A stretch of 55,987 bases of DNA from a bacterium (GTDB lineage: Bacteria; Cyanobacteriota; Vampirovibrionia; Gastranaerophilales; Gastranaerophilaceae), in assembly GCA_024408765.1 (NCBI GenBank), contig JAKSUR010000002.1, forward strand, positions 1 to 55,987, given 5' to 3'. Position numbers and translations under genes: made by a program. Of this stretch, positions 50,937 to 55,987 are shown one piece after another. The notes under the pieces are model-generated. The model searched no databases, was not told where the DNA came from, and saw only the letters and a program-made list of their open reading frames with translations. The stretch's first letter is position 1. Every line of letters starts with the position of its first letter.

Positions 50937-51479
50937 ATGAGAACCAATGCTATCAATTCCGGTATGTTGTACTCAAACAGAATACAGCAACCTGCAAAAC
51001 AAAAAGCAAACAATCAGACATTTAAAGGTTATTGGAACGCAGAAGCACTACATGTTCTTAATCGTTCTGCAGAAGAAATGACTCAAATCGGCAAATTATT
51101 CCATAAGAGTTCTGATACAACATTAAGAGAAGTTACATTAGTACGTAGCTTTTTTGGTTGGATAAAGCAGAAAAAAAGTCAACAAGCTTATGAAAAACTT
51201 AAAGAATATGTAAATATTGCTAAATTACATAGAACCGAAATGGAAACATATTATAACACTTTAAACAACGTTGAAAAGTATGTTGGTTTACCTGAAATAC
51301 TCAAAGAAGAAAAGGAAAAAACAATTAATAAAATTAAGGAATTAGATGAAATTGCAACACATGCAAATATCTATTATGTAACTGATGAACAAATACAACG
51401 TCAAAAAGAAGAAATGAAAGAAATTAATAGAGAAGCAATGCTGGATTATTACGCAAGGCATAACTCTTATGATTGGTAG
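50937..51479 (+). CDS. Unknown protein with N-terminal TFKGY motif
   Basis: The 180-residue protein has a polar, disorder-like first 40 residues with NNQTFKGYWN. The rest is largely helical, with Lys/Glu-rich coiled-coil character (EEKEKTINKIKELDEIA). The F-K-G motif near residue 29-33 is shared in form with the unknowns at 23962, 26180 and 27018. AGGAG precedes the ATG. No family is recognised; it may be a lineage-specific protein. Confidence 0.65.
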   Translation: MRTNAINSGMLYSNRIQQPAKQKANNQTFKGYWNAEALHVLNRSAEEMTQIGKLFHKSSDTTLREVTLVRSFFGWIKQKKSQQAYEKLKEYVNIAKLHRTEMETYYNTLNNVEKYVGLPEILKEEKEKTINKIKELDEIATHANIYYVTDEQIQRQKEEMKEINREAMLDYYARHNSYDW

Positions 51480-51721
51480 ATTGTAGATTGTAAGGTGTAC
51501 TCCATTTTAATAACATTCGTATGTTTATTTGTTGCATCTGATAACTCAACCCATTTATCAGGTCTACCCTCTTCTTTGAAGTTGTCCTCCGTTGCAGTTG
51601 CCATTATTCCTGCGATATTTTTCATCAAAGGTCGGAGGCTCTCTCCACGTTTTGCTAATTCTAGCAATATAGAAAGAACCTCTTTATTATCAATTTTTAT
51701 TTCAATTGGTTGTTCACTCAT
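51467..51721 (-). pseudogene. Phage virion morphogenesis (gpG-like) protein, C-terminally truncated
   Basis: The frame gives 84 residues from ATG 51721. ELAKRGESLRPLMKNIAGIM and NFKEEGRPDKWVELS match the N-terminal part of Mu gpG-like tail completion proteins, which are roughly twice as long. The remaining residues are unlike the family, so the 3' part was lost. The neighbours are other phage or methylase fragments. Confidence 0.65.
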
Positions 51722-51965
51722 GCAGTTCCTTAATTGGATAGTTTGCAATAAGTAACTCTTTGAACACTTTGTTTTTACGATTAGCAAAATCTCGGTTGTT
51801 GATTCCGTTTTGTCGTTCAATCGCAATTATATCAAAGCCTTTGTATAACTCTCTAATTTTTGGCGAATCGTCATAAGAAAGTAAAAATCTGCCTTTGATA
51901 TTACCAAGCACTTCTCTTAATCTTTCGTGGTCAAAGCCTTCCGTAGTTGTTACCAACCAAGCCAT
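51714..51965 (-). pseudogene. C-terminal fragment of a D12-class DNA adenine methylase
   Basis: The frame gives 83 residues. HERLREVLGNIKGRFLLSYD, SPKIRELYKGFDI and VFKELLIANYPI match the C-terminal end of Dam/D12 N6-adenine methylases, while the SAM-binding and DPPY parts are missing. It overlaps the gpG fragment by 8 bases and the next frame to the right by 16. It is probably a remnant of a prophage-borne methylase. Confidence 0.65.
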
Positions 51966-52219
51966 TTTCCTGATTTATAATCCCTCCACACTGTAACCCA
52001 AGGAAATACAACATTACCTTTAACTCTACTATCAAGTAACTTTTCTGCTGTTTTCACAAATGGTTTGCAGAAGTTAATTGTGTTAGATTTGGAATATTCC
52101 AAAAAATGCTCCAAGAACTCCCTTATCAATTCTGATTGTTTAAATGGAGTAATTTGACGTTGAGCTAGGATTATATTGTACTGTATAAGTATAAGTTTTT
52201 GTTCGTATAAGTCTTTCAT
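51950..52219 (-). CDS. Small unknown frame in the phage remnant
   Basis: The 89-residue frame ends KSGKWLGW and overlaps the methylase fragment. It contains a Phe/Glu-rich helix and WVTVWRDYK. No family is recognised. It may be a truncated phage gene or a joint of two fragments. Confidence 0.4.
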   Translation of the reverse strand: MKDLYEQKLILIQYNIILAQRQITPFKQSELIREFLEHFLEYSKSNTINFCKPFVKTAEKLLDSRVKGNVVFPWVTVWRDYKSGKWLGW

Positions 52220-52225
52220 ATTTTT

Positions 52226-52603
52226 TTGACAATTGGGTTGAATGGGTCTCTACTATTATGTTATCGCTATTTCTGCATTGCATCAAGACAAATAACTAAA
52301 AAGCTAGCAGATGATGGTTTGAGAAATCCAAATGGAAATAAATACTTCAAATCAACTATTGAACATATGCTTAATCTTCAACAAAAGAAATTAATACTTG
52401 AGATTATATCAGAAGACCTTACATATAAAGATAAAACATTAAGTGTTAAATTAAGACCAATATTTGATTGTTTATCAAAATCTAGTATAAAGCTGATAAA
52501 CATTGAGTTTGAGAACAATAGAACTCTCGAAAATATGATTGATAGTGGATTACAAGGGGATAAAACTCCAAAAACAATAAAAAACTCCTCGAAAATGGTT
52601 TAA
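52226..52603 (+). pseudogene. Possible C-terminal remnant of a serine recombinase
   Basis: The open frame has only a weak TTG start. SRQITKKLADDGLRNPNGNKYF followed by KSTIEHML (given here in two parts) resembles the recombinase linker in which an HTH-like segment selects sites. The following LSVKLRPIFDCLSK also fits recombinase C-terminal strands. The catalytic domain is absent upstream. Its left end abuts the phage remnants on the other strand. Confidence 0.45.
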
Positions 52604-52911
52604 GTCGAACTATTTGTATTGACTTATATAAAGTGCTAAATAGTATATCCAGTGATATATTCTACCGTATTCAAGGATTCAATTATTATATCACAAATAA
52701 TATTTCTGCATAATTAATTTACAATACATCCTTCCTTTACTATAAATTTTACTGAATTACTAACATTTTACCATTGGTAATTCCCGAAATCCCTCTATTT
52801 ATGGGGGATTTTTTGCATACATACTCCCAAAATAAAGAGTAATTTGAGAAAAATTTTAAAATGAAAATATGGGAAGCACCCAGATATTACAAATTAAAAA
52901 AGGAGAAAATC
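52604..52911. other. 308-base leader of the recombinase-like operon
   Basis: TTGACT (52619-52624), 16 bases, TAGTAT (52641-52646) is a reasonable promoter. AAATCCC...GGGATTT with six T's (52787-52814) is a terminator placed between that promoter and the operon. This could be an attenuated leader, or simply the end of the upstream remnant. Confidence 0.5.
52787..52814 (+). terminator. Terminator or attenuator before the recombinase-like operon
   Basis: A 7-bp AAATCCC/GGGATTT stem with a 10-base loop and a T-run, about 100 bases before the first start codon. Confidence 0.65.
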
Positions 52912-53454
52912 ATGCCTAAGAAAAAAACTAATACAAAAAGTAAAAACGTAGAAGAAACAAAAAGGAGAACAATTATGGAACAAGAAAAGGTAGTAATTTA
53001 CACACAAGTAGCAACACAAGAACAAGCAAAAGAAGGTTATGCTATTGAAGCACAACGTAAAACTCTGAGAGAGTATGCAGAGGAGAACAATTTAGAAATT
53101 GTAAAAGGATTCTCTGATACCGGGTCAGGTCTTAAGAGTAGCAGAAAGAGTTTCAATGAAATGTTGAAATTTCTTGAATCTTCTGAAGATTGCAACACAA
53201 TTTTAGTTACAAAACTTGATAGATTAAGTAGAGATTTTAAAACATTAAGTGAATTGCAAGAGAAATATTCAATAATTGCAACGAAAGATGGTATTGGAAC
53301 TCAAATTAACACTGATATTATGAAGCAAATAAAAAATGCAATGGCATCGTATTATTATGTACGCCAATCACAAATAATGAAAGATGCTTGGAAGAGAAGA
53401 AAAGAAAGAGAAGCTCAACAAAAAGAAGTTAAACTTGAAGGAGGTGAGGTGTAG
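52912..53454 (+). CDS. Serine-recombinase-like protein lacking the catalytic serine
   Basis: The protein is 180 residues from ATG 52912 (AAGGAG upstream). A second ATG at 52975 has an equally good AAAAGGAGAA site. From the second start the resolvase fold is clear: VVIYTQVATQEQAKEGYAIE, FSDTGSGLKSSRKSFNEML and KLDRLSRDFKTL. In active enzymes this first motif is YxRVSTxEQ; here Arg becomes Gln (Q11) and the nucleophile Ser becomes Ala (A13). No DNA-binding C-terminal domain follows. It cannot be a standard recombinase and may be a regulatory or DNA-binding descendant. Its stop overlaps the next gene. Confidence 0.8.
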   Translation: MPKKKTNTKSKNVEETKRRTIMEQEKVVIYTQVATQEQAKEGYAIEAQRKTLREYAEENNLEIVKGFSDTGSGLKSSRKSFNEMLKFLESSEDCNTILVTKLDRLSRDFKTLSELQEKYSIIATKDGIGTQINTDIMKQIKNAMASYYYVRQSQIMKDAWKRRKEREAQQKEVKLEGGEV

Positions 53455-54014
53455 TGATTACTTCTAAATACTTGAAATTTAATACAATTTATCCGGGAGT
53501 AAAATGCATAGAATTATTTACAACTTTGAGTAGAAAAAGAGTTCATGCATACCAAGTTAAATTGAATAACAATATTATCAGTTTATTTGACTACAGGATA
53601 AATAAAGTACAACAATGGATTATAGACTGGATTAGTAATGGTTCAAATGAATCCACATCTAAAAATAGCTCACGTAGATTAGTTAAAAAAACAGTCAGAG
53701 TTGATTCTGATATGCATAATTCACTTGTTTCTTGTACAAATGTTGATAAAACTGAAATAAGTAGAATAATATCTAATGCCGTAATGGGAGAAATTTCTAA
53801 TAATGAAATTATCTTAATAGGCTCATGTGATTTTACATATAGAGTTACAGTATATTTTACGCCCCAACAATATGCTCATATTAAACAAATTGTAGAAGAA
53901 TTAAAACATAGGCAATTGGGTGTAACTTTTAGCTCATTAGTAAGAAGCATACTGTATAAAACACTTAAACACGTTAAAGAAATTAAAGGAGAACTAAAAA
54001 ATGAACAATGTTAA
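53454..54014 (+). CDS. Unknown protein with two ribbon-helix-helix-like segments
   Basis: The protein has 186 residues from GTG 53454, overlapping the previous stop by one base, with GGAGGTGAGG upstream. Two segments have a strand followed by two helices, the RHH plan: TVRVDSDMHNSLVSC and DKTEISRIISNAVM, then TVYFTPQQYAHIKQIVEEL with VTFSSLVRSILYKTL. A small basic region precedes them. It may be a DNA-binding protein. The end overlaps the next gene by 14 bases. Confidence 0.65.
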   Translation: MITSKYLKFNTIYPGVKCIELFTTLSRKRVHAYQVKLNNNIISLFDYRINKVQQWIIDWISNGSNESTSKNSSRRLVKKTVRVDSDMHNSLVSCTNVDKTEISRIISNAVMGEISNNEIILIGSCDFTYRVTVYFTPQQYAHIKQIVEELKHRQLGVTFSSLVRSILYKTLKHVKEIKGELKNEQC

Positions 54015-54843
54015 AACGGTAAAAATTGTAAAAAGAAATGCAAATGGTAAAAAGAAAACCATCAGAAGAAAAGAATATGATTATTTCAGTGTGGATAAAT
54101 TTACCTATGATACTATGCAGGAAAAAGCTCTTCAAGAACAAAGCAGAGTAAAAAATATCAAAAATGATACTCAAAGAACTCTTGTACAAGTTGAGTTACC
54201 AAGTTGTTATTTTAAAAAATTAAAGACTTGTGGTTTTGAAGTACAAGATATAGAGTGGCACAATAGAGATAAACGCTACAAGGATATAATTCTTGATTCA
54301 TACGATTTTATTGTTTCAAGCCCTATTTCTGCTGGCTTAGATGATTGCTGTGAGAATGTTGTAATTAATCAGCAATTTGAGGAAATGATAAGCAACTATA
54401 TAGAAAATAGTCCCAAGAGTAAAATTAGATGTGAAGTACCACCATCTTCAGGTTCAAAATGTATTTATTTATCATTACCAACTCTTTTGGCATATAAATT
54501 AAAGTTCTCATCAATGATGTCTGGAGTTTATATGTCGGATATTATTACTCATCTATTTGGATATTTTGTTCCCAAAATGATAGTGAAGAAATACGGAAAA
54601 TATATCAAGAATAAAAGATACCTGGAAATGGAAAATGATGCACCTTGGGGTACTAATTACAGAGTAATAAATCGAATGTGGATTGAAATATTTCTATACG
54701 CTAATGATAAAGTTAAAACCCTATTAGATTTATCCTCGTTTAATATTACCAGTGAGGATACGGATTTTGGTGAAGAATTTGATTTCTTTATTGATGATTT
54801 AGTAACTGTTGAAAGTCAAATCTACCAATATGAGTTTCACTAA
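54001..54843 (+). CDS. Unknown 280-residue protein in the recombinase-like operon
   Basis: No family is recognised. A basic N-terminus (KKTIRRKEYDYF) is followed by QVELPSCYFKKLKTCGFEVQ. A central region has CEVPPSSGSKCIYLSLP, which resembles the first strand of another RHH-like repeat, then a helical C-terminus and acidic tail (EEFDFFIDDL). No signal peptide is present. It is translationally coupled to the preceding gene and followed by a terminator. Confidence 0.6.
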   Translation: MNNVKTVKIVKRNANGKKKTIRRKEYDYFSVDKFTYDTMQEKALQEQSRVKNIKNDTQRTLVQVELPSCYFKKLKTCGFEVQDIEWHNRDKRYKDIILDSYDFIVSSPISAGLDDCCENVVINQQFEEMISNYIENSPKSKIRCEVPPSSGSKCIYLSLPTLLAYKLKFSSMMSGVYMSDIITHLFGYFVPKMIVKKYGKYIKNKRYLEMENDAPWGTNYRVINRMWIEIFLYANDKVKTLLDLSSFNITSEDTDFGEEFDFFIDDLVTVESQIYQYEFH

Positions 54844-54865
54844 TTGTGAAATTATATTTTGAAGT

Positions 54866-54898
54866 AGGAGTGGTTAAGGCTCTTCCCACTCCTTTCCT
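54866..54898 (+). terminator. Terminator after the 280-residue gene
   Basis: AGGAGTGG-(12 bases)-CCACTCCT is an 8-bp perfect stem followed by TTCCTTTTT. Confidence 0.75.
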
Positions 54899-54934
54899 TT
54901 TTAAGTAGTATGAAGAGCCAAATGGAACAAAAAA

Positions 54935-55987
54935 ATGAAGATAGAAGAGCCGAGTCAAATTTTTGACGATATTGATGATATTGACGATATTGATAATTTT
55001 GAATTTAAAAATAATATTTCAAAGAGCCAAAGTTTAAATACCACAAGTGATTCCATAGAAAATAAACCTCACATCCCGGATATAATATCTAAAAGGGATA
55101 TGCCTTATTTTCCATGTTGTTACGATGCTCCTTTAATAAGTATCATAAACAAAATATATATAGAAACACTTGATTATATGGTTGGTATGGAAAGATTCCA
55201 AGAGTTATTTAATGAGTTAGGTGTTTGTAGTAACAACAGTAATACTATAGATAGAACCAATAGTATTTATAGAATATTAAATCCAGATGTATTATCAATG
55301 TTGAGTGTGTTAAATATTGGCGAAATATACCAAGTAGGTGATTACACCAATAGGGTAGAATCGCCACTGTACACAACAACAGGTTTTGATGTATATGTAT
55401 TGAAACATTTACAACAGTACCACATAAAAGATATGGTTAGTGATATTGAAAATAATATTCTACACAGGTTTATTTCATTAACATATCAAAAGAAAAACCT
55501 CATTATACATTTGTATCCACTTAAATGTATGGAACTTAAACACATACCTTATGAAGATGCCCTATCATACTGTATTTCAGCAATGTGGGCAACGCTCATA
55601 AATATTGTTTATACAGGCATGAATTCTTGTACTGTAGAAAAGGATTTAATAATTGATTTACTAAAAAAAGTATTTTATCAATTAAATCCAATACTAACTA
55701 AATTTGTAATATATGCATCACGACCAATTACCCCAGAGGGGTATGCTTTTGTGTACGAACTGCAACAACTTCAACCAGCCAAGAAACATTTCACTATGAA
55801 AGTTTCCCAGAACCATGTAAATTACAGATGGAGTCCATTTAATGAAAGGTTTGAAGATTATTTTAATAATTTCTACAGGACAAGATTTCCTATACCTGAA
55901 GAAGAAATAGGAGATTTAAGAGGCGATAGTGATGGTAAAAGATGTTGCAAATATGATTGCAGAATAAAGAATAAGAGTGTAATAACA
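54935..55987 (+). CDS. Unknown large protein, 3' truncated by the window end
   Basis: The frame is open from ATG 54935 to the last base, giving 351 residues so far. It begins with an acidic repeat (FDDIDDIDDIDNF) encoded by near-repeated 9-base units. It then has a helical domain with YIETLDYMVGMERFQELFNE, and later PEGYAFVYELQQLQPAKKHF. A possible metal or disulfide cluster near the end has CCKYDC. No family is recognised. Located 91 bases past the terminator, it may be a separate transcript but belongs to the same accessory cluster. Confidence 0.6.
   Translation, partial: MKIEEPSQIFDDIDDIDDIDNFEFKNNISKSQSLNTTSDSIENKPHIPDIISKRDMPYFPCCYDAPLISIINKIYIETLDYMVGMERFQELFNELGVCSNNSNTIDRTNSIYRILNPDVLSMLSVLNIGEIYQVGDYTNRVESPLYTTTGFDVYVLKHLQQYHIKDMVSDIENNILHRFISLTYQKKNLIIHLYPLKCMELKHIPYEDALSYCISAMWATLINIVYTGMNSCTVEKDLIIDLLKKVFYQLNPILTKFVIYASRPITPEGYAFVYELQQLQPAKKHFTMKVSQNHVNYRWSPFNERFEDYFNNFYRTRFPIPEEEIGDLRGDSDGKRCCKYDCRIKNKSVIT

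Follow-up and report, generated by a model that had tools for sequence, protein, structure and literature searches.

The right end of a contig from a gut bacterium of the Gastranaerophilaceae raises the question of what a serine-recombinase-like protein does at the head of an operon when the residues of its catalytic centre are altered. The DNA analysed, hereafter the window, is 55,987 nucleotides long and makes up the entire contig C26 in a draft genome (G000) that totals 1.58 Mb. The features that bear on the question lie in its last kilobases and are collected in Table 1.

Table 1. Features at the left end of the integrative element in the window
Feature	Position	Strand	Description
Decayed large serine integrase remnant	52226..52603	+	Recombinase-domain fragment joined to C-terminal part; left flank of the element
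att core AATAAAAAACTCCTCGAA	52576..52593	+	Marks the left element end; core shared with the left ends of L080, L095 and L096
Integrase-frame C-terminal tail (...RTICIDLYKVLNSISSDIFYRIQGFNYYITNNISA*)	52584..52713	+	Frame completed only in the circular form; aligned across elements
24-bp inverted repeat TTACYAA-N10-TTGGTAA	52757..52780	.	Upstream of ORF1
Terminator-like hairpin with T run	52792..52813	+	Between the inverted repeat and ORF1; from a pattern scan, weak alone
ORF1 (RES)	52861..53454	+	Serine-recombinase catalytic domain standing alone; catalytic Ser and first Arg missing
ORF2	53454..54014	+	Tandem ribbon-helix-helix-like, coupled to ORF1; homologues in L099 and L130
ORF3	54001..54843	+	Conserved protein, possible RHH units; 51% homologue in the integrase-bearing element of G259
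ORF4	54935..55987	+	First part of a large protein of unknown kind, cut off by the contig end

Fold, catalytic residues and operon of ORF1

The frame of ORF1 is open throughout (197 aa) and matches Pfam Resolvase (PF00239, E 1.4e-19). The likely start is at 52912 (AAGGAG upstream) or at 52975 (behind GGAG). The latter agrees with the start of the homologue in the related element L078, and both proteins are then 159 aa long. The AlphaFold model (pLDDT 77) has a resolvase fold with a long C-terminal helix, and its best PDB matches are the catalytic domains of ISC1926 TnpA and TP901-1 integrase (probability 1.00). ORF1 belongs by this fold to the serine recombinase superfamily. In fold and sequence its catalytic domain is like those of the large serine integrases, both TP901-1 and the local ones of Gastranaerophilaceae. 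Unlike them, ORF1 lacks the Recombinase and zinc-ribbon domains, the 159-197 aa protein stopping after the E helix, as well as the Ser and the first Arg, and the same element type has a separate integrase.

The YxRVS motif reads YTQVA in ORF1 (52999-53013; R8Q, S10A). The Ser and Arg positions are correctly called, since alignment with the TP901-1 integrase structure 3bvp pairs IYTQVATQEQ of ORF1 with IYTRVSTTNQ. DRLSRD is retained at 53218-53235 with the equivalents of R68 and R71, as are those of R45 and D36. Among the loci compared, Arg and Ser are present in all 46 distinct full-length serine integrases that cover those positions (46/46), and both Arg of DRxxR in 49/49; the truncated integrases of these genomes, where the positions are covered, retain Arg and Ser too. 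Judged from its residues, ORF1 is not expected to be an active serine recombinase, because the nucleophilic Ser and the first Arg of YxRVS are missing. The initial annotation, made from the DNA letters, is thus borne out in its description of an intact frame and a remaining recombinase fold that keeps DRLSRD and has lost the nucleophile and a key Arg.

The same annotation described tight coupling to an RHH-like gene and a third gene, followed by a large protein running out of the window, and this description holds as well. ORF1 and ORF2 share one base (53454), with which the ORF1 stop codon ends and ORF2 begins, the start of ORF3 overlaps the end of ORF2, and ORF4 leaves the contig end. The ORF2 model is weak (pLDDT 51), with two beta-helix-helix units visible. 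Its top PDB match, also weak (E 0.056), is a small chain of the F-plasmid relaxosome, which we take to be TraY. No Pfam RHH hit was obtained for ORF2. The weak model suggests that ORF2 may resemble tandem RHH proteins of the TraY kind, a likeness in arrangement that model and fold match indicate at low confidence; the setting differs from that of TraY, as no relaxase was identified in the element of ORF2. No relatives of ORF4 were detected. Related elements have a 522-550 aa protein in this position; homology of ORF4 with it was considered and rejected (hhalign probability 0.2%). Near the N-terminus of ORF4 a DDIDDIDDID stretch is encoded by a short DNA repeat (54965-54994).

The integrative element around the operon

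The operon proved to occupy the left end in a type of integrative element that has a full canonical integrase, a setting that the initial annotation had not foreseen. The type is seen from end to end in the genomes G117 and G250, which represent two genera and whose elements (L078, L079) share 99.75% identity across 11.6 kb. The element spans about 24 kb between an att core, which lies 350 bp before the head gene, and tRNA-Asn(gtt); its right end carries a canonical integrase of 506 aa (YVRVSS). It encodes the 159-aa head protein, a protein of 222 aa, an RHH protein, proteins of 159, 522 and 350 aa, and defence genes. The middle region differs between L078 and L079 (type III restriction, Snf2/HKD and others by PADLOC). 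The two copies point to a recent transfer between genera with exchange of cargo. Sister elements carry restriction and other defence genes.

The gene content bears on the proposal that ORF1 serves the circular form, together with RHH proteins, as a partition or replication factor of the plasmid type. The operon of the relatives does run on into RHH, OB-like 159-aa, 522-aa and 350-aa proteins of unknown kind. On the other hand, no ParA/ParM-type NTPase or recognised replication protein occurs among the operon proteins (Pfam, PHROGs), and the element is found integrated, which makes such a role very improbable. A suspicion that the 350-aa protein is a replication initiator was dropped, Pfam, PHROGs and NCBIfam giving no support.

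Sister elements occupy the same tRNA-Asn in G151 and G176. The left core is AATAAAAAACTCCTCGAA in G151 and a close variant in G176, and these relatives terminate at tRNA-Asn with AATAAAAAACTCC. A duplicated core, an integrase at one end and a tRNA at the junction are present in both G117/G250 and G151/G176. In G000 the left element end lies in the window and the right end on a separate contig, C21, which ends inside an element whose integrase overlaps tRNA-Asn; the att core occurs in a single copy in this genome. C26 and C21 probably hold the two ends of one element, and the window's canonical integrase would then be the one on C21, the two contigs being joined by inference. Homologues of C26 and C21 genes are neighbours in G220 and G212, with an orientation that differs between these two genomes, and lend moderate support to the adjacency.

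The integrase gene spans the att core (G117:C3 84230-85750; G000:C21 23381-24901). In the integrated copy the C-terminus of the integrase is made of tRNA-Asn-derived residues (LDSNQQP). The circular form would give the integrase a different C-terminal tail of about 40 residues, as predicted from the frames, and the in-frame tail junction is demonstrated for the G117 element and for C21 plus the window.

To the left of the core, the integrase remnant has a Pfam Recombinase match under the curated cut-off (E 0.016), and its C-terminal part looks by eye like the integrase ends of L080 and L082. It is probably a decayed integrase, in the same direction as that of L080, from an older element at the same site. 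Truncated or decayed integrases adjoin the left att core in the same direction both in L080 (11647-12993) and in the window (52226-52603), as would be expected from earlier insertions of elements into this tRNA-Asn site. The short frames beyond (51467-52219, minus strand) resemble prophage remnants by eye. Elsewhere in the genome, at G000:C41 143-1765, another large serine integrase overlaps tRNA-Ala(tgc) with its 3' end and marks a second element type.

The inverted repeat is found about 80-200 bp upstream of the operon, at the same place in L078-L081, L095 and L096, with 0.02 occurrences expected in the window. The repeat persists in elements without ORF1; therefore, it is probably not bound by ORF1, and another protein probably reads it.

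Head proteins of related elements

The comparison rests on three distinct operon-head proteins, those of the window, L099 and L078 (identical in L079). The L099 protein shares 61% identity with ORF1 across 92 aa, has the SRDFKTLSELQEKYS stretch in common with it and carries R68K, its contig beginning after the Ser position. This contig is 5.3 kb long and comes from a MAG labelled Christensenella, possibly mis-binned. Its gene order is head protein, overlapping ORF2 homologue (38%), 159-aa-type protein, RHH, 516-aa and 356-aa proteins. In L078/L079, where a stand-alone RES is the first gene as well, the corresponding motifs are YMRVT and ARLIR (S10T, D67A), with the first Arg present. The sister elements L080/L081 hold a short N-terminal relic of the head protein, fused to the RHH gene, and L095/L096 have in its place an RHH gene that begins in the same way. 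The ORF1-type head protein is consequently optional in the element family, only a relic being left in L080/L081. The element type of L095, L096 and L099 lies on contigs of MAGs labelled Clostridium and Christensenella, which reflects either mis-binning or wide transfer.

The initial annotation had asked whether the Ala and Gln changes and the gene order are conserved in homologues. The changes are not, L078 having Arg and Thr. Altered catalytic residues do recur, by R68K in L099 and by loss of Ser and D67 in L078, as different lesions. The gene order is kept for ORF1-ORF2 in L099, and L078/L079 have a related arrangement. A predicted dead catalytic centre in stand-alone form is thus recurrent among the head proteins, and the lesions differ from protein to protein. 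In the tree the window protein groups with that of L099 (95/83), and the three head proteins all branch outside the clade of local integrases (98/99); they may have a single origin.

Neither a search of the order with ORF1 (286 genomes) nor one of the family with ORF2 (378 genomes) turned up any closer relative of the genes in the window. IMG/VR scans with ORF1, ORF2, ORF3 and the 350-aa protein gave no relatives, the scan with the ORF1 pair ordinary recombinases only, and that with the 159-aa protein one weak locus only. Phage and plasmid collections held recombinases of less than 60% identity only, and a GTDB scan with ORF3 had no matches.

Over the 92-codon core the window and L099 genes differ at 29, 17 and 38 sites in codon positions 1, 2 and 3. 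The NG86 method gives dN 0.28 and a dS of 1.25 that is near saturation (dN/dS about 0.22). In 5000 neutral simulations the protein identity never came up to the observed value, and only 78 of the runs had no stop codon. The core is under purifying selection, and ORF1 is therefore not a fresh pseudogene. The outcome of the simulations, together with R and S in 46/46 integrases, indicates that the observation is not due to chance. These results weigh on the explanation that ORF1 is a slowly decaying integrase remnant, a truncated, no longer functional catalytic domain that persists for a time by chance or on account of its short N-terminus. Catalytic lesions that differ in each homologue, a C-terminal half that is barely recognisable in the L078 protein and the relic fused to RHH in L080/L081 agree with such decay. 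The intact frame and the purifying selection across the window-L099 divergence argue against it, as do the truncated integrases of these genomes, which keep R and S, and decay is considered unlikely.

Head proteins are seen only in tRNA-Asn-type elements or in L099, whose contig ends are unknown, and not in elements where a divergent integrase occupies the left end. G353 (L130) has ORF2 and the genes behind it, together with a divergent canonical integrase and no head protein. In G259 (L039) the ORF3 homologue (51%) has as neighbours a divergent canonical integrase and a restriction system of type I. ORF1 could instead form a DNA-bound complex with the RHH protein ORF2 (and ORF3) that represses the left-end operon, or that is relaxosome- or segrosome-like, and leaves the integrase untouched. 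The stop/start overlap of ORF1 and ORF2 in the window and in L099, the match of the ORF2 model to a tandem-RHH chain of the F relaxosome and the conserved inverted repeat upstream are all consistent with this complex. However, L130 has ORF2 without ORF1 beside a divergent integrase, the inverted repeat stays in elements without ORF1 and the ORF2 model is weak, so that the complex appears rather doubtful.

Candidate role of ORF1 and its significance

The explanation favoured here, tentatively, is that ORF1 is a pseudo-recombinase, a non-catalytic accessory protein acting on the integrase of the element or on the RHH complex, where both the partner and the direction of the effect are inferred. 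ORF1 most likely acts by protein contact, because the fold and the E helix are kept and the nucleophile and the DNA-binding domains are absent. Modulation of the integrase is favoured because the ORF1 type heads only tRNA-Asn-type elements (or L099) with a distal integrase, and because ORF1 adjoins att and could form mixed assemblies with subunits of the integrase.

In the proposed mechanism ORF1 would consist of a serine-recombinase catalytic domain and a long E helix, without the nucleophile and the DNA-binding domains of an integrase, and would be kept as the head of the left-end operon in tRNA-Asn elements with a canonical integrase at the right end. Its catalytic-domain and E-helix surfaces would dock onto the integrase of the element with no chemistry. 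Alternatively or additionally, ORF1 may act close to att and the inverted repeat, in company with the RHH proteins to which it is coupled. In this way it would damp or time integration, excision or expression of the operon. The element lineage may even have turned a duplicate recombinase catalytic domain into a dead modulator of its own integrase, as a dominant-negative subunit or directionality factor, a step that is conceivable and still on the unlikely side. Two observations count against the favoured explanation. The elements L080/L081, with the relic, and L095/L096, with the RHH gene, have moved nonetheless; and the three head proteins have different lesions each, which also fits relaxed catalytic constraint during slow decay. 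As for the roles first suggested, a regulator or adaptor fits these data, and partition has no specific support.

Pseudo-enzymes that regulate active relatives are well known among kinases and proteases. A literature search for inactive serine recombinases found vaccinia F16 as the sole predicted case (PMC11980589). Like ORF1, F16 is a serine-recombinase relative believed to be catalytically dead and in another role, an analogy that is limited because F16 is a nucleolar protein of a eukaryotic virus and does not head the operon of a bacterial integrative element. The regulatory-site dimer of Sin resolvase has a structural, non-cutting role (PMC2428073) and may likewise resemble what is proposed for ORF1, a serine recombinase dimer used without cutting. 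In contrast to ORF1, Sin carries a DNA-binding domain of its own, and the very protein that has this structural role performs catalysis at site I.

These results also bring to light a family of integrative elements that carry defence genes in gut Gastranaerophilaceae. Serine integrases are genome-engineering tools, and their directionality factors are hard to find. If the favoured explanation is true, a conserved pseudo-recombinase in elements with an active integrase would represent a new kind of serine-integrase control.
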